64,000 nt of DNA from Bacillota bacterium (GTDB lineage: Bacteria > Bacillota > Sulfobacillia > Sulfobacillales > Sulfobacillaceae). Positions 3,321 to 31,736 of the stretch are shown one piece after another. The stretch is taken from assembly GCA_021784595.1 (NCBI GenBank), contig JAJYHT010000008.1:1-64000 (forward strand). The letters run 5' to 3'. Both the position numbers and the translations under genes were made by a program. The notes beneath the pieces are model-generated. The model saw nothing but the letters and a program-made list of their open reading frames with translations, did no database searches and was not told where the DNA came from. Each line of letters opens with the position of its first letter. The first letter of the stretch is position 1.

Positions 3321-3761
3321 ATGTGGGCATTCGAGCACACAATAACAACACCGGCTGGACTTACAGCGATTTGGAATCTGTACAGTGATATCACAGCTTG
3401 GACCGAGTGGGACCAAGGGATTTCCCACGCCTCGCTGGACGGGCCCTTTGCTGTAGGCACAAGTGGCCTGTTGCAACCGCAAGGACAGACGGCATTGCCC
3501 TTTCAACTCACGGAGGTGGACCCGCTCCAGGGATTTAGTGATGTCACAGACATCCCGGGAACGGGGATCCAAATTCACTTCACACACCGTCTGGAGAAAG
3601 TGGAAGAGGGTACGAAGGTCACTCACTCGGTGAGAATCACTGGCAGCAGTGCGAATGAGCTAATCTCGCACCTTGGCCCTGAGTTAACGCGCGGTATTCC
3701 CCACACCATGGAGCGATTAGCCGAGATGGCGCTGGCCCGGGAGCAGAGTCATGCGGACTGA
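3321..3761 (+). CDS. SRPBCC (START-like) family protein
   Basis: About 146 residues with the ligand-pocket fold of the polyketide cyclase/SRPBCC superfamily. It opens with 'FEHTITTPAGLTAIWNLYSD' and 'TAWTEWDQGI', has a central 'DVTDIPG...IHFTHRLE' strand region, and ends with a long amphipathic helix ('LGPELTRGIPHTMERL'). The ATG at 3321 is chosen because GGGGG precedes it and the domain begins immediately. The stop codon overlaps the EVE gene by 11 nt, so the genes are translationally coupled. Members bind hydrophobic small molecules or modify them; the ligand here is unknown. Confidence 0.8.
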   Translation: MWAFEHTITTPAGLTAIWNLYSDITAWTEWDQGISHASLDGPFAVGTSGLLQPQGQTALPFQLTEVDPLQGFSDVTDIPGTGIQIHFTHRLEKVEEGTKVTHSVRITGSSANELISHLGPELTRGIPHTMERLAEMALAREQSHAD

Positions 3762-4212
3762 AGTCATAGGCGCACAGTGCCGATTCTGGGTCGGGGTGGT
3801 CTCGGCTGCCCATGTGTCTTTGGGCGTGCAAGGACGATTTGCCCAACTTAACCACAAGAAGGCCGGGCCCCTGCGCAAGATGGCGCAGGGGGACTGGCTC
3901 GTGTATTATTCCCCGCGTACGGATACACATGGCGGCACACCGGTGCGAGTCTTCACGGCGATAGGGTGCCTCGCCGATGACCTTCTTTATCCATATCTGG
4001 CGTCCGAGCAGTTCATCGCGTTTAGGCGCCGCGTCCGGTATGTGCCATGCCATACCGCAAAGATTTCCGGAATGCCGGGCGCTCTAAGTTTCATTCAAGA
4101 CTCCACGCATTGGGGATATCTCTTCCGTCGGGGGCACTTTGAGATAGGACGGGAAGACTTTCTCACCAATGCGCAGTCCATGTGGGGGGAAGCCTATGAG
4201 TTCGGAGTTTAA
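3751..4212 (+). CDS. EVE-domain protein (UPF0310 type)
   Basis: 153 residues covering a single EVE domain. Diagnostic parts are 'FWVGVVSAAHVSLGVQG' at the N-terminus, 'FAQLNHKKAGPLRKMAQGDWLVYYSPR', and 'YVPCHTAKI' near residue 95. EVE domains belong to the PUA-like superfamily, and several bind modified bases in DNA or RNA through an aromatic cage. The start overlaps the SRPBCC stop by 11 nt and the stop overlaps the MarR start by 17 nt. A stand-alone EVE domain in a small regulated operon could read a modified nucleic acid, but this is not shown by the sequence. Confidence 0.85.
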   Translation: MRTEVIGAQCRFWVGVVSAAHVSLGVQGRFAQLNHKKAGPLRKMAQGDWLVYYSPRTDTHGGTPVRVFTAIGCLADDLLYPYLASEQFIAFRRRVRYVPCHTAKISGMPGALSFIQDSTHWGYLFRRGHFEIGREDFLTNAQSMWGEAYEFGV

Positions 4213-4633
4213 TGACGCGCAGGATAGCCCAGGTTTTTTGCTATGGGAGGTGACAAATCTCTGGCAAAAAAAAATACGGCAGGCCTTGGAACCTTTAGCC
4301 CTGACACACATGCAGTTCGTTCTGCTGTTTTCTTGCCACTGGCTGGTCAGCAGAGGCGGCGGTGCGGATATTACCCAGGTCCAGTTGGCGCAGTATGCGC
4401 ATGTCGACGTCAATGTGACTTCTCAGGTATTGAGAGTGCTGGAACAAAAGGGCTATATCACACGCTCCGCCCACCTTTCGGACACCCGCGCCAAGGTTAT
4501 CGCTCCCACGCCAGCGGGCACTGAGCTCGCGTTGCGCGCAGTGCAGGTGGTTGAAGCGGCTGACCGGGAATTTTTCTCCGCCATGGGCAGTGAGCGGGAG
4601 CAGTTCATAAAGCTGATGCGCCGGTTGCGGTAA
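4196..4633 (+). CDS. MarR-family transcriptional regulator
   Basis: 145 residues with a winged helix-turn-helix. The recognition region is 'TQVQLAQYAHVDVNVTSQVLRVLEQKGYITRSAHLSDTRAKVIAPTPAG', with the DxR of the MarR wing ('SDTRAK') intact. The ATG at 4196 follows GGGGGGA; an upstream start would run deeper into the EVE gene. It is the last gene of the SRPBCC-EVE-MarR operon. The perfect dyad over the operon promoter is its likely operator. MarR proteins usually leave DNA on binding a small phenolic or lipid-like ligand, or on oxidation. Confidence 0.88.
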   Translation: MSSEFNDAQDSPGFLLWEVTNLWQKKIRQALEPLALTHMQFVLLFSCHWLVSRGGGADITQVQLAQYAHVDVNVTSQVLRVLEQKGYITRSAHLSDTRAKVIAPTPAGTELALRAVQVVEAADREFFSAMGSEREQFIKLMRRLR

Positions 4634-26968: not shown

Positions 26969-28177
26969 TTAGTTCGGATCTTTAGGAACAGCAATATTTT
27001 GGTTCACTATCCAGATTACGGTGACCCATACGCCTTTTGCCGTCCACCGCACTCGTCGCGTCTTATGCCTTATAGGCCCTAGTTTCTCCACTGAGCGAGC
27101 CAATTCATCCGTCGCTCGCGTTGTGGCTTGGGCCAAAGCATTTTTAGCCGACAGCCGATAAAAGCTGGTTGTGGTTTCATTATATACTATCTTAAGCATT
27201 TTCATGGGAAGGTTGACACCTTTGAACCGCAGTGGGTGCACGAATCGGTGCTCCACATAATGTGCAAACGGAATGGCTCCATATCCTGCGTATTGCCAGG
27301 GCGCCAAATCCTGCACCCAGATAAACTGCTGCACAAATCGCTTGCCAGTCAGTTTTCGGTCGGGTTGGCGAAAAGGCTGAAATACCGTTCGCACATGCCC
27401 TACATCAGCCCAAACATCTCCTTCGGCTGGCGTACTTATGGTCTCTTCGCGGGGGGCATTGCTTCCCTCCGCAGGTAGCGGCATGGGAGCCGACACGGCA
27501 CCTCGAATTAAAGTTTGCCCGACTTTGACAGTATCTCCGACCCTAACTTCAGGATCGCCCATATAAACCAAAATTTTTGTAATGCGTCCTGGGGCGTTGG
27601 CCACCATCTTGGCATAAATGTGGGGATGGGGGCGGGGAACCAGCACAACCACTTGAATACTGGCGACGACGCCTTCAATGGTGATTCCTATCCAGGAGTA
27701 CTGCGGCAGTGCCTTGGCCATCGCAGCCCTAATCTTCGGCAAGTCTAGTTGTTTGCGCAGGATGCCCACTTTTAACCCGCTGTCCTGGGCCACCGTAATG
27801 ATTTGCTGGCGTGCTGCCTGAGGCAAATTTGGCGTTATCGCATCAATTACCCACACCCGCGAGAGAGTGTATATGACCAACACTACCGCGGTTAAAAATC
27901 CTACCCATAAGAAAGGTCGATGCCGCGATCTGTCCCATTCAATAGGGAAGCCTCCCTTATTTAAGAGGGCCAACGTAAGATCATGGCTTTGGCCATATTC
28001 CAGCATGGCTGGCACTGCAGACAATGTAGCATAAAAAGAGATCGGAACCTCGCTTTTGCTTAGTCCCCACAAGCGAAATCCCATAGCTGCCAGATGTGAA
28101 ATCAGGGACTCCACATTCGGGCCCGCCGCCGCCACCTTGACCCAACCGAGAAACAGCCGGTACACCAGATCACCCAT
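26969..28177 (-). CDS. yqfD: Sporulation protein YqfD
   Basis: 402 residues. Known in Bacillus as a sporulation protein expressed in the mother cell. One membrane helix near residues 88-107 ('FLWVGFLTAVVLVIYTLSRVW' region) separates a small N-terminal domain from a large domain with 'GDPEVRVGDTVKVGQTLIRG', a biotinyl/lipoyl-like hairpin motif of the family. The start overlaps yqfC by 8 nt. Confidence 0.92.
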   Translation of the reverse strand: MGDLVYRLFLGWVKVAAAGPNVESLISHLAAMGFRLWGLSKSEVPISFYATLSAVPAMLEYGQSHDLTLALLNKGGFPIEWDRSRHRPFLWVGFLTAVVLVIYTLSRVWVIDAITPNLPQAARQQIITVAQDSGLKVGILRKQLDLPKIRAAMAKALPQYSWIGITIEGVVASIQVVVLVPRPHPHIYAKMVANAPGRITKILVYMGDPEVRVGDTVKVGQTLIRGAVSAPMPLPAEGSNAPREETISTPAEGDVWADVGHVRTVFQPFRQPDRKLTGKRFVQQFIWVQDLAPWQYAGYGAIPFAHYVEHRFVHPLRFKGVNLPMKMLKIVYNETTTSFYRLSAKNALAQATTRATDELARSVEKLGPIRHKTRRVRWTAKGVWVTVIWIVNQNIAVPKDPN

Positions 28178-28454
28178 GTCGTCCCTCCTGGAAAGACAAT
28201 GATCGCACCGTGCCAGTCAAGAGAATCTCGTTGCGGTCTATCCACCCGACCACCAATTGCTCACCAAAAACCACAAGATACCCGCCTGCAACCCGAATCA
28301 ACACCCGTTGCGCGTCATAGGTTTCAATACCCAAATGATTTTCCAAACGCAGTTGCAGATGTCCAATGACTTCAATGCGGGGCACATTGACCAAGACTTC
28401 CGGCGGTATGCCTAGCATCCCTGATATTCGACCCAAGGTGCGCCCTTTATTCAT
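28170..28454 (-). CDS. yqfC: Sporulation protein YqfC
   Basis: 94 residues, the family length. YabP/YqfC-like core: 'GMLGIPPEVLVNVPRIEVIGHLQLRLENHLGIETYD' in outline, then 'VLIRVAGGYLVVFG' and 'LLTGTVRSLSF'. The ATG at 28454 has GGAGG 5 nt upstream; 20 extra upstream codons are open but not needed. First gene of the yqfC-yqfD-phoH-pgpH run; mother-cell (sigma-E) expression is known for the family, not visible here. Confidence 0.92.
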   Translation of the reverse strand: MNKGRTLGRISGMLGIPPEVLVNVPRIEVIGHLQLRLENHLGIETYDAQRVLIRVAGGYLVVFGEQLVVGWIDRNEILLTGTVRSLSFQEGRHG

Positions 28455-28601
28455 AGCATCCTCCCTCGTTGCCTCGTCTCTAATTTTCATCGTATGCAAG
28501 GCTTGGTCACTCAATGATCAGACAAATCCCACTCGAGAAGAGGGAACCGGCTGTATGATGTCGAATGCTCTATTCAACCGTTTCGTCTGTGGGGGGTTGT
28601 T

Positions 28602-29432
28602 ATGAATATTGCAGAGCGATATCCGGCCCAAGCCGCTCCTAAAGTAGGGGTGGCCAAAATAACCACCACGCGCCAATGTTGGATGCAGTGTCGCTTTTGT
28701 GACTTTAGTCAATTTGCGCCACTGGTGTTTGGGGCAGATATTGACCCTTGTTTATCCCTCTCCAAAGCAGAAACGCAACTCAAAAGACTAAACCCCGCAG
28801 TCAAACTGCTTAAAATTCGCGGAGGACTCTCATTTCGTGAACCTTTTAGCTATTTTCGAGCTTTGGTCAAAACTGCTGCCAAAATGTTTTCTGGTCCCAT
28901 TCAAGCATTTTCTCCCATTGAGCTTTATCAATGGCACCGCATCGAACAGCGGCCTATACGCGACCTGTTGGCTGAGCTGCGGTGGGCTGGGGCCACCCAG
29001 TTAGGCCCCGGAGGCGGGGAATCTTTGGTCCAGCCATGGCGGGACCGTCTCTCTCCCAACCGCCTAGACGCAGAGGCTTGGTTGTCTTTAGCAAGCTTGG
29101 GGTGGGAAACCGGAATGCCTCCTAGTGCCATGATCTTGGCCGGACGGTGGCTTGCGAAAGAAGATCTGGCCCAGCATTTGCATTTGTTAACCACCCAATC
29201 CTGGCACCATCTTGAAGTGAAAATTATGCGCCCCGTCACCCTGCATCCTGAACTGGAGCCGATCCATTTGATTGCCTTATGTCGTCTCGTCTCCGAGATT
29301 AAAGAGAAAATGCCCGATACACCGCTCTACGTAAACGACCCCTCCTACCCATTAACAGACGATGCATATCTGTTGTTGACACGAGCCGGGGCGGACGGGT
29401 TTTATACCACATTGGAGGACATTGAACCGTGA
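28602..29432 (+). CDS. Radical SAM protein, MqnC/CofH-like
   Basis: 276 residues. The [4Fe-4S] site 'CWMQCRFCDF' (CxxxCxxC) lies at residues about 27-35. 'RWAGATQLGPGGGESLVQPWRDRLSPNRLDAEAWL' follows the pattern of menaquinone-futalosine and F420 radical SAM enzymes (MqnC, MqnE, CofH), where a GGG/GT turn is followed by 'ISP..L....WL'. It is about 80 residues shorter than MqnC and lacks its C-terminal part. The ATG at 28602 is divergent from yqfC. The stop overlaps the next gene by 4 nt. No other futalosine gene is in the window, so a menaquinone role is unproven; the substrate is unknown. Confidence 0.75.
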   Translation: MNIAERYPAQAAPKVGVAKITTTRQCWMQCRFCDFSQFAPLVFGADIDPCLSLSKAETQLKRLNPAVKLLKIRGGLSFREPFSYFRALVKTAAKMFSGPIQAFSPIELYQWHRIEQRPIRDLLAELRWAGATQLGPGGGESLVQPWRDRLSPNRLDAEAWLSLASLGWETGMPPSAMILAGRWLAKEDLAQHLHLLTTQSWHHLEVKIMRPVTLHPELEPIHLIALCRLVSEIKEKMPDTPLYVNDPSYPLTDDAYLLLTRAGADGFYTTLEDIEP

Positions 29433-30097
29433 ATGAGGCGTTGCTGTGGATACCCACCCTGGATCTGACGTCTGTGCCCGCGCCGTATCATGAGGCATCG
29501 GCCAAGATGTTTTTAGCGGCTCACCACGGACGCGGGCATATCATCAGCCCCGACCCGCTGGTTATTCGCGTGCCTTCGCTTGCGCTCACCAGTCCCCGCC
29601 CGGGGTTTGCTTGCCATCTCATCTCCCAGAGCCCGATTCCCGATGGCCCGTTGGAACTGATCGATGTAACCATTTCGTGTCCCCGTGGAGTGCAAGATCC
29701 CCATCTCGCGCGCCTGGACCAAATATTCAAGAAGGGGCCCGTTAGACGCGTGATTTTGACACGTCAGAGCCCCGAACAGAGCCTGAACGCCATTGCGCAA
29801 GCCTTGGACACCTTGTTGGATACTTTTCCTGAAATCCTCATAGCCATTGACGTCAATTCGTTTGGCTGGGATGCTGCCTCCCATTTTGCCGCAGAATATC
29901 CCCCAATCCTCCTGGATGGCATAGCAGACTCTGAATTGTGGCGTTTGATGGACTTAGCCCAAGTACTTCAACGGCCAGTATGGCTCGACGATTTCAGCCA
30001 TCATCCCAAACCGGTTCCCGAATTGCCACAATATAAGATATTTGATCCGCCTCCTGTGGATGTGCACCGCATCCCATTTTCCAGCAGATTTCGATAG
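29429..30097 (+). CDS. Unrecognised protein coupled to the radical SAM gene
   Basis: 222 residues, cytoplasmic by composition, with no signal peptide or membrane helix. I recognise no family. It contains alternating strand/helix-like segments such as 'PLELIDVTISCPRG', 'VRRVILTRQSPEQSLNAIAQALD', 'PEILIAIDVNSFGWD' and 'PPILLDGIADSELWRLMDLAQ', which look like part of a beta/alpha barrel. The GTG start overlaps the radical SAM stop (GTGA). It might be a partner subunit or supply the part missing from the short radical SAM protein (speculative). Confidence 0.75.
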   Translation: MNEALLWIPTLDLTSVPAPYHEASAKMFLAAHHGRGHIISPDPLVIRVPSLALTSPRPGFACHLISQSPIPDGPLELIDVTISCPRGVQDPHLARLDQIFKKGPVRRVILTRQSPEQSLNAIAQALDTLLDTFPEILIAIDVNSFGWDAASHFAAEYPPILLDGIADSELWRLMDLAQVLQRPVWLDDFSHHPKPVPELPQYKIFDPPPVDVHRIPFSSRFR

Positions 30098-30115
30098 CAC
30101 AAGGGGGTAACCAAT

Positions 30116-30712
30116 TTGAGTGAGCTGGAAATTTTATCTACAAGGGAAGCCAAAGCCTTTATTTGCCAAGGAGTGGCCATTGTCGACGTGCGCAGTCTTC
30201 GCTCCTATTGCCAAGGGCATATTGTGGGATCGCTGTCACTGCCCGGCGGGCGTTATCAGCTCTCCCTTATGGCCACACAAAAAGAGTTGGCGGATCGCCG
30301 AGCCCTACTTATCGCCGATACGCCCACCACCGCCTATGAATCGGCCGAAGAGCTGAGCAGCGCCCGGGTCGCTGTGGTGGGAGCCTGGGTCACGTCAAGC
30401 GAAGGTTTCCAGCATGCAGGCCTGCGGACCAAATTTTTAACTGGCCTCAAACGGGCACACATCCCGTCATATCTGGCAGCGCATCCTGACACCGTAGTTT
30501 TTGATATACGAGAACGTCATGAGAGCGATCAATTCCCCTTGCCGTGGCTTTGCCATTCTTCGCCGCTTTCCAGTTGGCCTCGGTCTCTACCCGCTGTCGA
30601 CCCCGACGATGCCCTGCTGCTGTTCGCAGACGATGCGCACAGGCCTTTGTGGGCCGCATGGGCTCTGCTGCAATGGGGTTTTCAAAACATCGCCTATATT
30701 AAGGAGCACTGA
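30116..30712 (+). CDS. Double rhodanese-like domain protein
   Basis: 198 residues made of two rhodanese-like modules. The first has 'VAIVDVRSLRSYCQGHIVGSLSLPGGRY' (residues about 20-47), the standard CH2A/CH2B pattern. The second has 'DTVVFDIRERHESDQFPLP' and ends 'WAAWALLQWGFQNIAYIKEH'. The loops where the catalytic Cys should sit read 'LIADTPTT' and 'LFADDAHRP', so neither module has a standard sulfurtransferase cysteine. TTG start at 30116 with GGGGG 7 nt upstream. Last gene of the radical SAM cassette; likely a binding or scaffold role rather than thiosulfate sulfurtransferase. Confidence 0.78.
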   Translation: MSELEILSTREAKAFICQGVAIVDVRSLRSYCQGHIVGSLSLPGGRYQLSLMATQKELADRRALLIADTPTTAYESAEELSSARVAVVGAWVTSSEGFQHAGLRTKFLTGLKRAHIPSYLAAHPDTVVFDIRERHESDQFPLPWLCHSSPLSSWPRSLPAVDPDDALLLFADDAHRPLWAAWALLQWGFQNIAYIKEH

Positions 30713-31736
30713 GCGCAACTGCCCGGACCACAGCCGGGTCGGGCACAACAATCCCAAAGGAAGGGCCGAATCGACCCGTGCGCTGATTGAACCAGATGCC
30801 CTGCGAGGGCCCGTCCAGTATCACCAGCCAAGGAGTGCCCCGTCGTCCTACCACCACCATGGTTGCCTCTCTCGGCGAGGGCCAAGGAAGCATTTTGCTC
30901 CATTGTGGACGAGTGCCCCGGTAGGATACAAGTCCCTGCACCGTCAATCCCCATAGCGGCCATCCAGGCAAAATAGCCAAAACCGCTCGGCGCACACCAG
31001 AAAATGAGTAGCGCATGGAATGACTGGCATTCTCGTGGGCGATCCATTGCCCAAATCCTCGCTGTCCACTGGCATAAGGGATGATGGCGGTGCCCCGCGC
31101 AAATCCTACGGTGCCGGCGGGAGCCCCGCCAGAAAATATGGGGTAGGATGGCCCATGGGCCGTGAGACCTATGATATAAGCACGGTGCGGATCTACTACA
31201 AAGGCAGACGGCATTCCCATAGGGCCCACAACCAGGGTGACAATTCCTTGAGGCAAAGACCGTCTCACCTTCTGCCAGCGGTTTTTTTCAAATCGCCAAA
31301 CTTGGGCATGCGACGCTGAGGGAGTTTGGACTACGGCATAGAGTGCGCTCGACAACCAACGGATCGATAAAGCATCGTACGGAGCGGGCAACTGCGCATA
31401 AGGACGCACTTGTTGAGACCTTGTGATAGCAACGATATGGTGGCCTAAGGTAACCAAAATCTGGTGACTAGGGCCCGAAGTGACAATTTGGGTTTGGGCT
31501 ACCAAACCTAATCTGCCCAGCTTGATGGGCCCCTCCTCGGGGTTTCCGGCCGCTGAGTAATGCCTCGCCCATAACCATTCGGCGCCCGCAGAACCGGGCG
31601 TCGCATAGAAAACGAACAAACTTTGGGGCTGAACCGACACCGAGCCACATCCCGCAATGGTCAAGATCAAACATAACAATAAGAAGCCTTTTGCCGACCG
31701 ACGACGGCAAAAGGCCTTAAATACGGTGCTGTTCAT
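30699..31736 (-). CDS. Lipoprotein of unknown function
   Basis: 345 residues. A basic N-terminus and hydrophobic segment are followed by the lipobox 'LTIAGC', so it should be a membrane-anchored lipoprotein outside the cytoplasmic membrane. The rest has repeated short strand patterns with Trp and Gly ('WRFEKNRWQKVRRSLPQG', 'GQWIAHENA'), which could form a beta-propeller. Its ATG overlaps the yqeY stop (ATGA), so it is expressed with rpsU-yqeY. The 3' end overlaps the convergent rhodanese-like gene by 14 nt. Confidence 0.78.
   Translation of the reverse strand: MNSTVFKAFCRRRSAKGFLLLCLILTIAGCGSVSVQPQSLFVFYATPGSAGAEWLWARHYSAAGNPEEGPIKLGRLGLVAQTQIVTSGPSHQILVTLGHHIVAITRSQQVRPYAQLPAPYDALSIRWLSSALYAVVQTPSASHAQVWRFEKNRWQKVRRSLPQGIVTLVVGPMGMPSAFVVDPHRAYIIGLTAHGPSYPIFSGGAPAGTVGFARGTAIIPYASGQRGFGQWIAHENASHSMRYSFSGVRRAVLAILPGWPLWGLTVQGLVSYRGTRPQWSKMLPWPSPREATMVVVGRRGTPWLVILDGPSQGIWFNQRTGRFGPSFGIVVPDPAVVRAVALSAP

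Follow-up and report, generated by a model that had tools for sequence, protein, structure and literature searches.

Analysis of the window, a 64,000-nucleotide stretch of a 3.79-Mb Sulfobacillaceae genome (GenBank assembly GCA_021784595.1, contig JAJYHT010000008.1), revealed a conserved pair of genes encoding a compact radical SAM protein (hereafter rSAM) and a partner, P2, which is predicted to be a cluster-less TIM-type barrel. The locus represents a variant, specific to the family and maintained vertically, of an already known type of enzyme, and its unusual part is the partner protein, together with a cluster-less counterpart found elsewhere in the order. We tentatively read the locus as a two-barrel radical SAM enzyme, in which one barrel would cleave SAM and the other would help to bind the substrate, a reading to which we give somewhat less than an even chance. 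A search of the literature yielded nothing on these genes.

The pair is followed in this genome by a gene for a double rhodanese (RHO; Table 1). The tight coupling of the three genes, pointed out in the first-pass annotation, was confirmed from the three plus-strand open reading frames: rSAM and P2 overlap by 4 nt (GTGA) and the spacing between P2 and RHO is 18 nt. The trio indeed lies on the strand opposite to that of both its neighbours. Its described position between yqfC and yqeY also held, except that an additional gene, encoding a predicted lipoprotein that matches no family significantly, separates the trio from yqeY; this gene is kept beside the locus in nearly all relatives, and its 3′ end overlaps that of the convergent RHO gene by 14 nt. 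The gap between yqfC and rSAM contains no match to a sigma-70-type consensus. The GC and GC3 contents of the trio are those of its flanks, which speaks against a recent horizontal gain; the possibilities of a defence system and of a phage origin were likewise rejected, there being no match in PADLOC and PHROGs, respectively.

Table 1. Features of the rSAM/P2 locus and its immediate surroundings (positions in the window)
Feature	Coordinates	Strand	Description
yqfC	28170..28514	-	conserved flank; context, outside the system
gap yqfC/rSAM	28515..28601	.	87 bp between divergent genes
rSAM	28602..29432	+	276 aa, ATG start; compact radical SAM protein
P2 (middle protein)	29429..30097	+	222 aa, GTG start; predicted cluster-less TIM-type barrel
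RHO (double rhodanese)	30116..30712	+	198 aa, TTG start; optional third gene
predicted lipoprotein gene	30699..31736	-	345 aa; conserved convergent neighbour; context

Among the relatives of this genome, which belongs to the acid-loving Sulfobacillus-type bacteria, are Sulfobacillus benefaciens, S. acidophilus, S. thermotolerans (CP019454.1) and S. harzensis. Both rSAM and P2 are present, in a single copy each, in the same 30 of the 34 genomes of the family (the window's own genome counted), so that the locus is not confined to this strain but is homologous and syntenic family-wide. The pair is conserved across ten genera and adjacent in every genome whose contig spans both genes; yqfC-yqfD always flank it on one side and the lipoprotein gene usually does so on the other. 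Two of the four absences concern low-completeness genomes (G002 and G033) with contigs ending at the site, and genuine absence is therefore limited to one genus (g10, two genomes), in one genome of which the site holds a gene for a LysR-type regulator (L143:2678-3589, +). At normal thresholds, rSAM is absent from all eight genomes of the other families of the order, and a phylum-wide scan of 398 genomes detected no P2 outside the family. RHO, in contrast to the pair, is encoded at the locus in 17 of the 34 genomes, the others having only distant double-rhodanese paralogues elsewhere, and is dispensable at the locus. The three-gene cassette that had been proposed thus stands as a conserved pair with an optional rhodanese and not as a fixed three-gene pathway. 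All three genes are under purifying selection, with dN/dS values in close pairs of 0.08-0.16 for rSAM, 0.14-0.20 for P2 and 0.19-0.22 for RHO, and a mirror-tree test of rSAM against P2 revealed weak correlated evolution beyond the genome background (partial r 0.21).

RHO consists of two rhodanese domains (PF00581), as had been recognized from the outset, and the active-site loop Cys is absent from both domains in all 16 aligned members. The protein thus shares the double fold of the rhodanese family but is optional and devoid of the catalytic Cys, which makes the usual persulphide chemistry impossible for it.

The cluster motif CX3CX2C (CWMQCRFC, aa 26-33) and the GPGGGE motif (aa 135-140) ascribed to rSAM are both present. 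With CX3CX2C set in a predicted TIM barrel, and the motif found in all 30 members, rSAM belongs to the radical SAM superfamily. Similarity to the MqnC, CofH and MqnE models of NCBIfam is confined to aa 19-199 and is far under the cut-offs, with 75.2 bits (E 4e-21; cut-off 428.1) for TIGR03699 (MqnC), 60.9 bits (cut-off 434.55) for TIGR03700 (MqnE), and 58.7 and 62.8 bits for the CofH models TIGR03551 and TIGR00423; the score with Pfam PF04055 (14.2 bits) is also under its cut-off of 29.5. In a class-wide profile scan, the rSAM proteins of the family scored 314-380 bits and the remaining class members, led by proteins of the MqnC/MqnE type, at most 129. In a tree with 32 outgroup proteins, of which those that were scanned score as MqnC or MqnE in NCBIfam, rSAM forms a separate clade with a support of 100/100 and long stems; judging from these sequences, it represents a separate deep clade nested in neither MqnC nor MqnE.

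Twelve residues are invariant in the rSAM family (C26, C30, F32, C33, G75, L76, S104, E107, G137, G138, R154 and D254). Since C26, C30, C33, F32, GG(L), E107 and GPGG(E/D) are kept in 30/30 members despite identities to the window protein that go down to 25%, selection on the SAM/cluster site is implied. No conserved Cys beyond CX3CX2C was found in the aligned family, which argues against an auxiliary cluster and makes a BioB- or LipA-like sulphur insertion unlikely, the more so because the lipoate and biotin pathways are reported to be complete in Sulfobacillus (PMC4378227). Several features of the outgroup have been lost from rSAM: the N of the TN that precedes CX3CX2C, a G and an E that align with G181 and L184, and the stretch from strand 6 to strand 8. 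In addition, the columns of the C-terminal hallmark (I, G, P, R and Y), occupied in 28-29 of the 29 MqnC/MqnE outgroups, are gaps in 30/30 rSAM proteins. Hence, the SAM- and cluster-binding parts look intact, and the substrate side appears to differ.

The AlphaFold2 model of rSAM, based on an alignment of 30 sequences (pLDDT 92.8), contains eight strands; with the barrel complete, the absent length, correctly put at about 80 residues relative to MqnC, must correspond to terminal parts. Among solved structures, MqnE comes closest (Z 25.2 over 265 residues, 3.1 Å), followed by PylB, BioB and HydE (Z 20-25 for the four). With MqnE (aminofutalosine synthase, TIGR03700; PDB 6xi9 and 6xig), rSAM has in common the barrel fold, CX3CX2C, GGxE after strand 4 and the R/K154 and W160 positions, but the two proteins share 18% identity, and rSAM has neither the N-terminal helices nor the C-terminal hallmark, is paired with P2, and occurs in genomes of which those tested have no MqnA/MqnD. 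MqnC (cyclic dehypoxanthinyl futalosine synthase, TIGR03699) is the best NCBIfam match, over the cluster and SAM half, but its invariant G and E and its last segment are missing from rSAM. The CofH family (TIGR00423, TIGR03551) shares the superfamily motifs, whereas rSAM falls far under its cut-off and no CofH is found elsewhere in the genomes. In three other members of the class (L124:684-1793, +; L129:1575-2705, -; L135:350-1804, +), we observed MqnE-like proteins with CX5CX2C in place of CX3CX2C, one of which (L124) is over the TIGR03700 cut-off; all three adjoin a strongly diverged MqnC-like protein, and two of the three genomes (G522 and G523) also encode an ordinary mqnE-mqnC pair.

P2 has no sequence relatives in Pfam, NCBIfam, PHROGs, PADLOC or PDB, bar weak chance-level matches (those in Pfam being single-member), and none outside the order. 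Its designation as an unknown protein is thus borne out by the families searched but not by the predicted fold: structure prediction of P2 alone produced a confident barrel model (AlphaFold2, pLDDT 91.7, pTM 0.84), and by fold comparison the protein is predicted to be a cluster-less TIM-type barrel with MqnE as its best solved match. Foldseek returned no match under 1e-3 and ranked ordinary TIM barrels first, headed by 1yx1, a putative sugar-phosphate isomerase fold (E 8.6e-3). VIA-align, applied to Foldseek's 1000 best chains, placed MqnE first (Z 11.9, 197 residues, 3.7 Å), although it is not among Foldseek's top rows, with isomerase, aldolase and synthase barrels clearly behind (Z ≤9.8). 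MqnE is accordingly the nearest solved fold for the models of both rSAM and P2, which is suggestive of common descent. Comparison of the two profiles (hhalign) indicated no sequence homology of P2 to the superfamily (probability 2%, E 0.023), the score of 22.0 being slightly above those of shuffled controls (up to 18.8). The near-invariant residues P9, R112, G146 and D188 of the P2 model are located just past strand ends (positions by DSSP string), which hints at a used pocket, and there is no conserved metal-ligand set, H37 and D188 being the sole potential ligands at near-invariant sites.

These features bear on the main rival explanation, whereby rSAM and P2 would be two consecutive, operon-coupled enzymes of one short pathway, P2 processing the product of rSAM as an isomerase, aldolase or lyase. 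A full barrel with conserved residues after its strand ends, as in a protein with an active site of its own, the isomerase-type top match of Foldseek and the lack of sequence homology to rSAM all speak for such a pathway, but the structural aligner ranks MqnE well over the isomerase, aldolase and synthase barrels, and a conserved metal-ligand set is missing. We regard this explanation as a serious contender, albeit a less probable one than the two-barrel enzyme. The TIM-type fold of P2, with its best solved match to MqnE, makes a two-part enzyme as likely as a multi-step pathway.

In a complete genome from a different family of the order (G035), the corresponding site encodes a homologue of P2 (52.9 bits against a profile built without it). 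Its gene is immediately preceded, with overlapping ends, by that of a 281-aa counterpart of rSAM, residues 136-270 of which match the rSAM profile (16.5 bits; E 4.7e-7 when two sequences are searched). The rSAM counterpart of this sister-family pair (L146:2723-3568 and 3568-4215, +) lacks the cluster motif, and no CX3CX2C occurs in the six frames of the 7-kb region, so that radical chemistry is not needed there. In another genome (G034, family f2), the yqfC/yqeY site holds a double-rhodanese homologue only (L145:2826-3431, +; E 1.3e-11 to RHO). In the simplest history, the ancestor of the order would have had rSAM, P2 and the rhodanese at this site, with losses later. The cluster-less pair, along with the absence of the catalytic residue from RHO, could be taken to mean that the pair serves in ligand sensing or scaffolding and that the cluster is dispensable. 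We consider such a non-radical role improbable: the cluster-less case is one genome, whereas the cluster and SAM residues persist in every member of the Sulfobacillus family despite the extensive divergence.

To our knowledge, the MqnC/MqnE/CofH group catalyses a few reactions, all within menaquinone or F420 synthesis. No second protein of this type was found in any genome of the family, MqnA/MqnD (PF02621) were found in none of the 22 genomes tested, and MenB homologues occur in all 22 (over the cut-off in 20) as well as in the genera without the pair. These results lead us to reject a role in futalosine-dependent menaquinone or F420 synthesis, agree with the initial suggestion that the locus is not tied to either, and leave no full futalosine pathway elsewhere with which a plainly truncated MqnC could operate. 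A family-specific variant step of menaquinone synthesis would be in keeping with the resemblance of rSAM to MqnE and MqnC and with the varying demethylmenaquinone and menaquinone contents of Sulfobacillus species (PMC8489842), but is very improbable given the above counts and the menaquinone pathways reported for every Sulfobacillus genome in a published comparison (PMC4378227). A link to B12 synthesis is also unlikely, because strains AMDSBA3 and AMDSBA4, reported to lack B12 synthesis (PMC4378227), still carry the locus (L081 and L066). Finally, that rSAM is a decaying or truncated, functionless remnant of MqnC, as its shorter length and its scores under every NCBIfam cut-off might suggest, can be dismissed in view of its complete predicted barrel, purifying selection (dN/dS 0.08-0.16), retention in ten genera and deep position outside MqnC and MqnE.

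Returning to the two-barrel enzyme, rSAM would carry a [4Fe-4S] cluster, bind SAM and generate a 5′-deoxyadenosyl radical, as do MqnC, MqnE and CofH. We infer a complex with a division of labour, whereby P2 probably associates with rSAM and assists in holding the substrate or closing over it, standing in for the N- and C-terminal parts missing from rSAM; P2 may derive from the same barrel via duplication and cluster loss, and RHO, where encoded, would be a non-catalytic accessory. A more specific scenario, conceivable but doubtful, is a heterodimer whose active barrel and cluster-less barrel share a common ancestry, the latter having taken over the substrate-binding part of the MqnC/MqnE termini; in the sister lineage, both barrels would have lost the cluster and the pair would have passed into non-radical use. 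The proposed pair resembles the eukaryotic Dph1-Dph2, a heterodimeric radical SAM enzyme of related subunits, which differs in having a non-canonical radical SAM fold, unrelated sequences and a cluster in both subunits (PMC11048331).

The conservation of the rSAM branch in organisms without MqnC, MqnE or CofH implies an undescribed reaction. As originally proposed, the locus would make a modification or cofactor, and we infer a small product, either a cofactor or a metabolite, with no relation to menaquinone or F420. The undescribed reaction would be one kept by nearly all members of an industrially used bioleaching family. Should P2 be a sister barrel devoid of a cluster, the locus would illustrate how radical SAM work can be divided over two barrels, one active and the other inactive, for which the cluster-less pair of the sister family offers a natural comparison.
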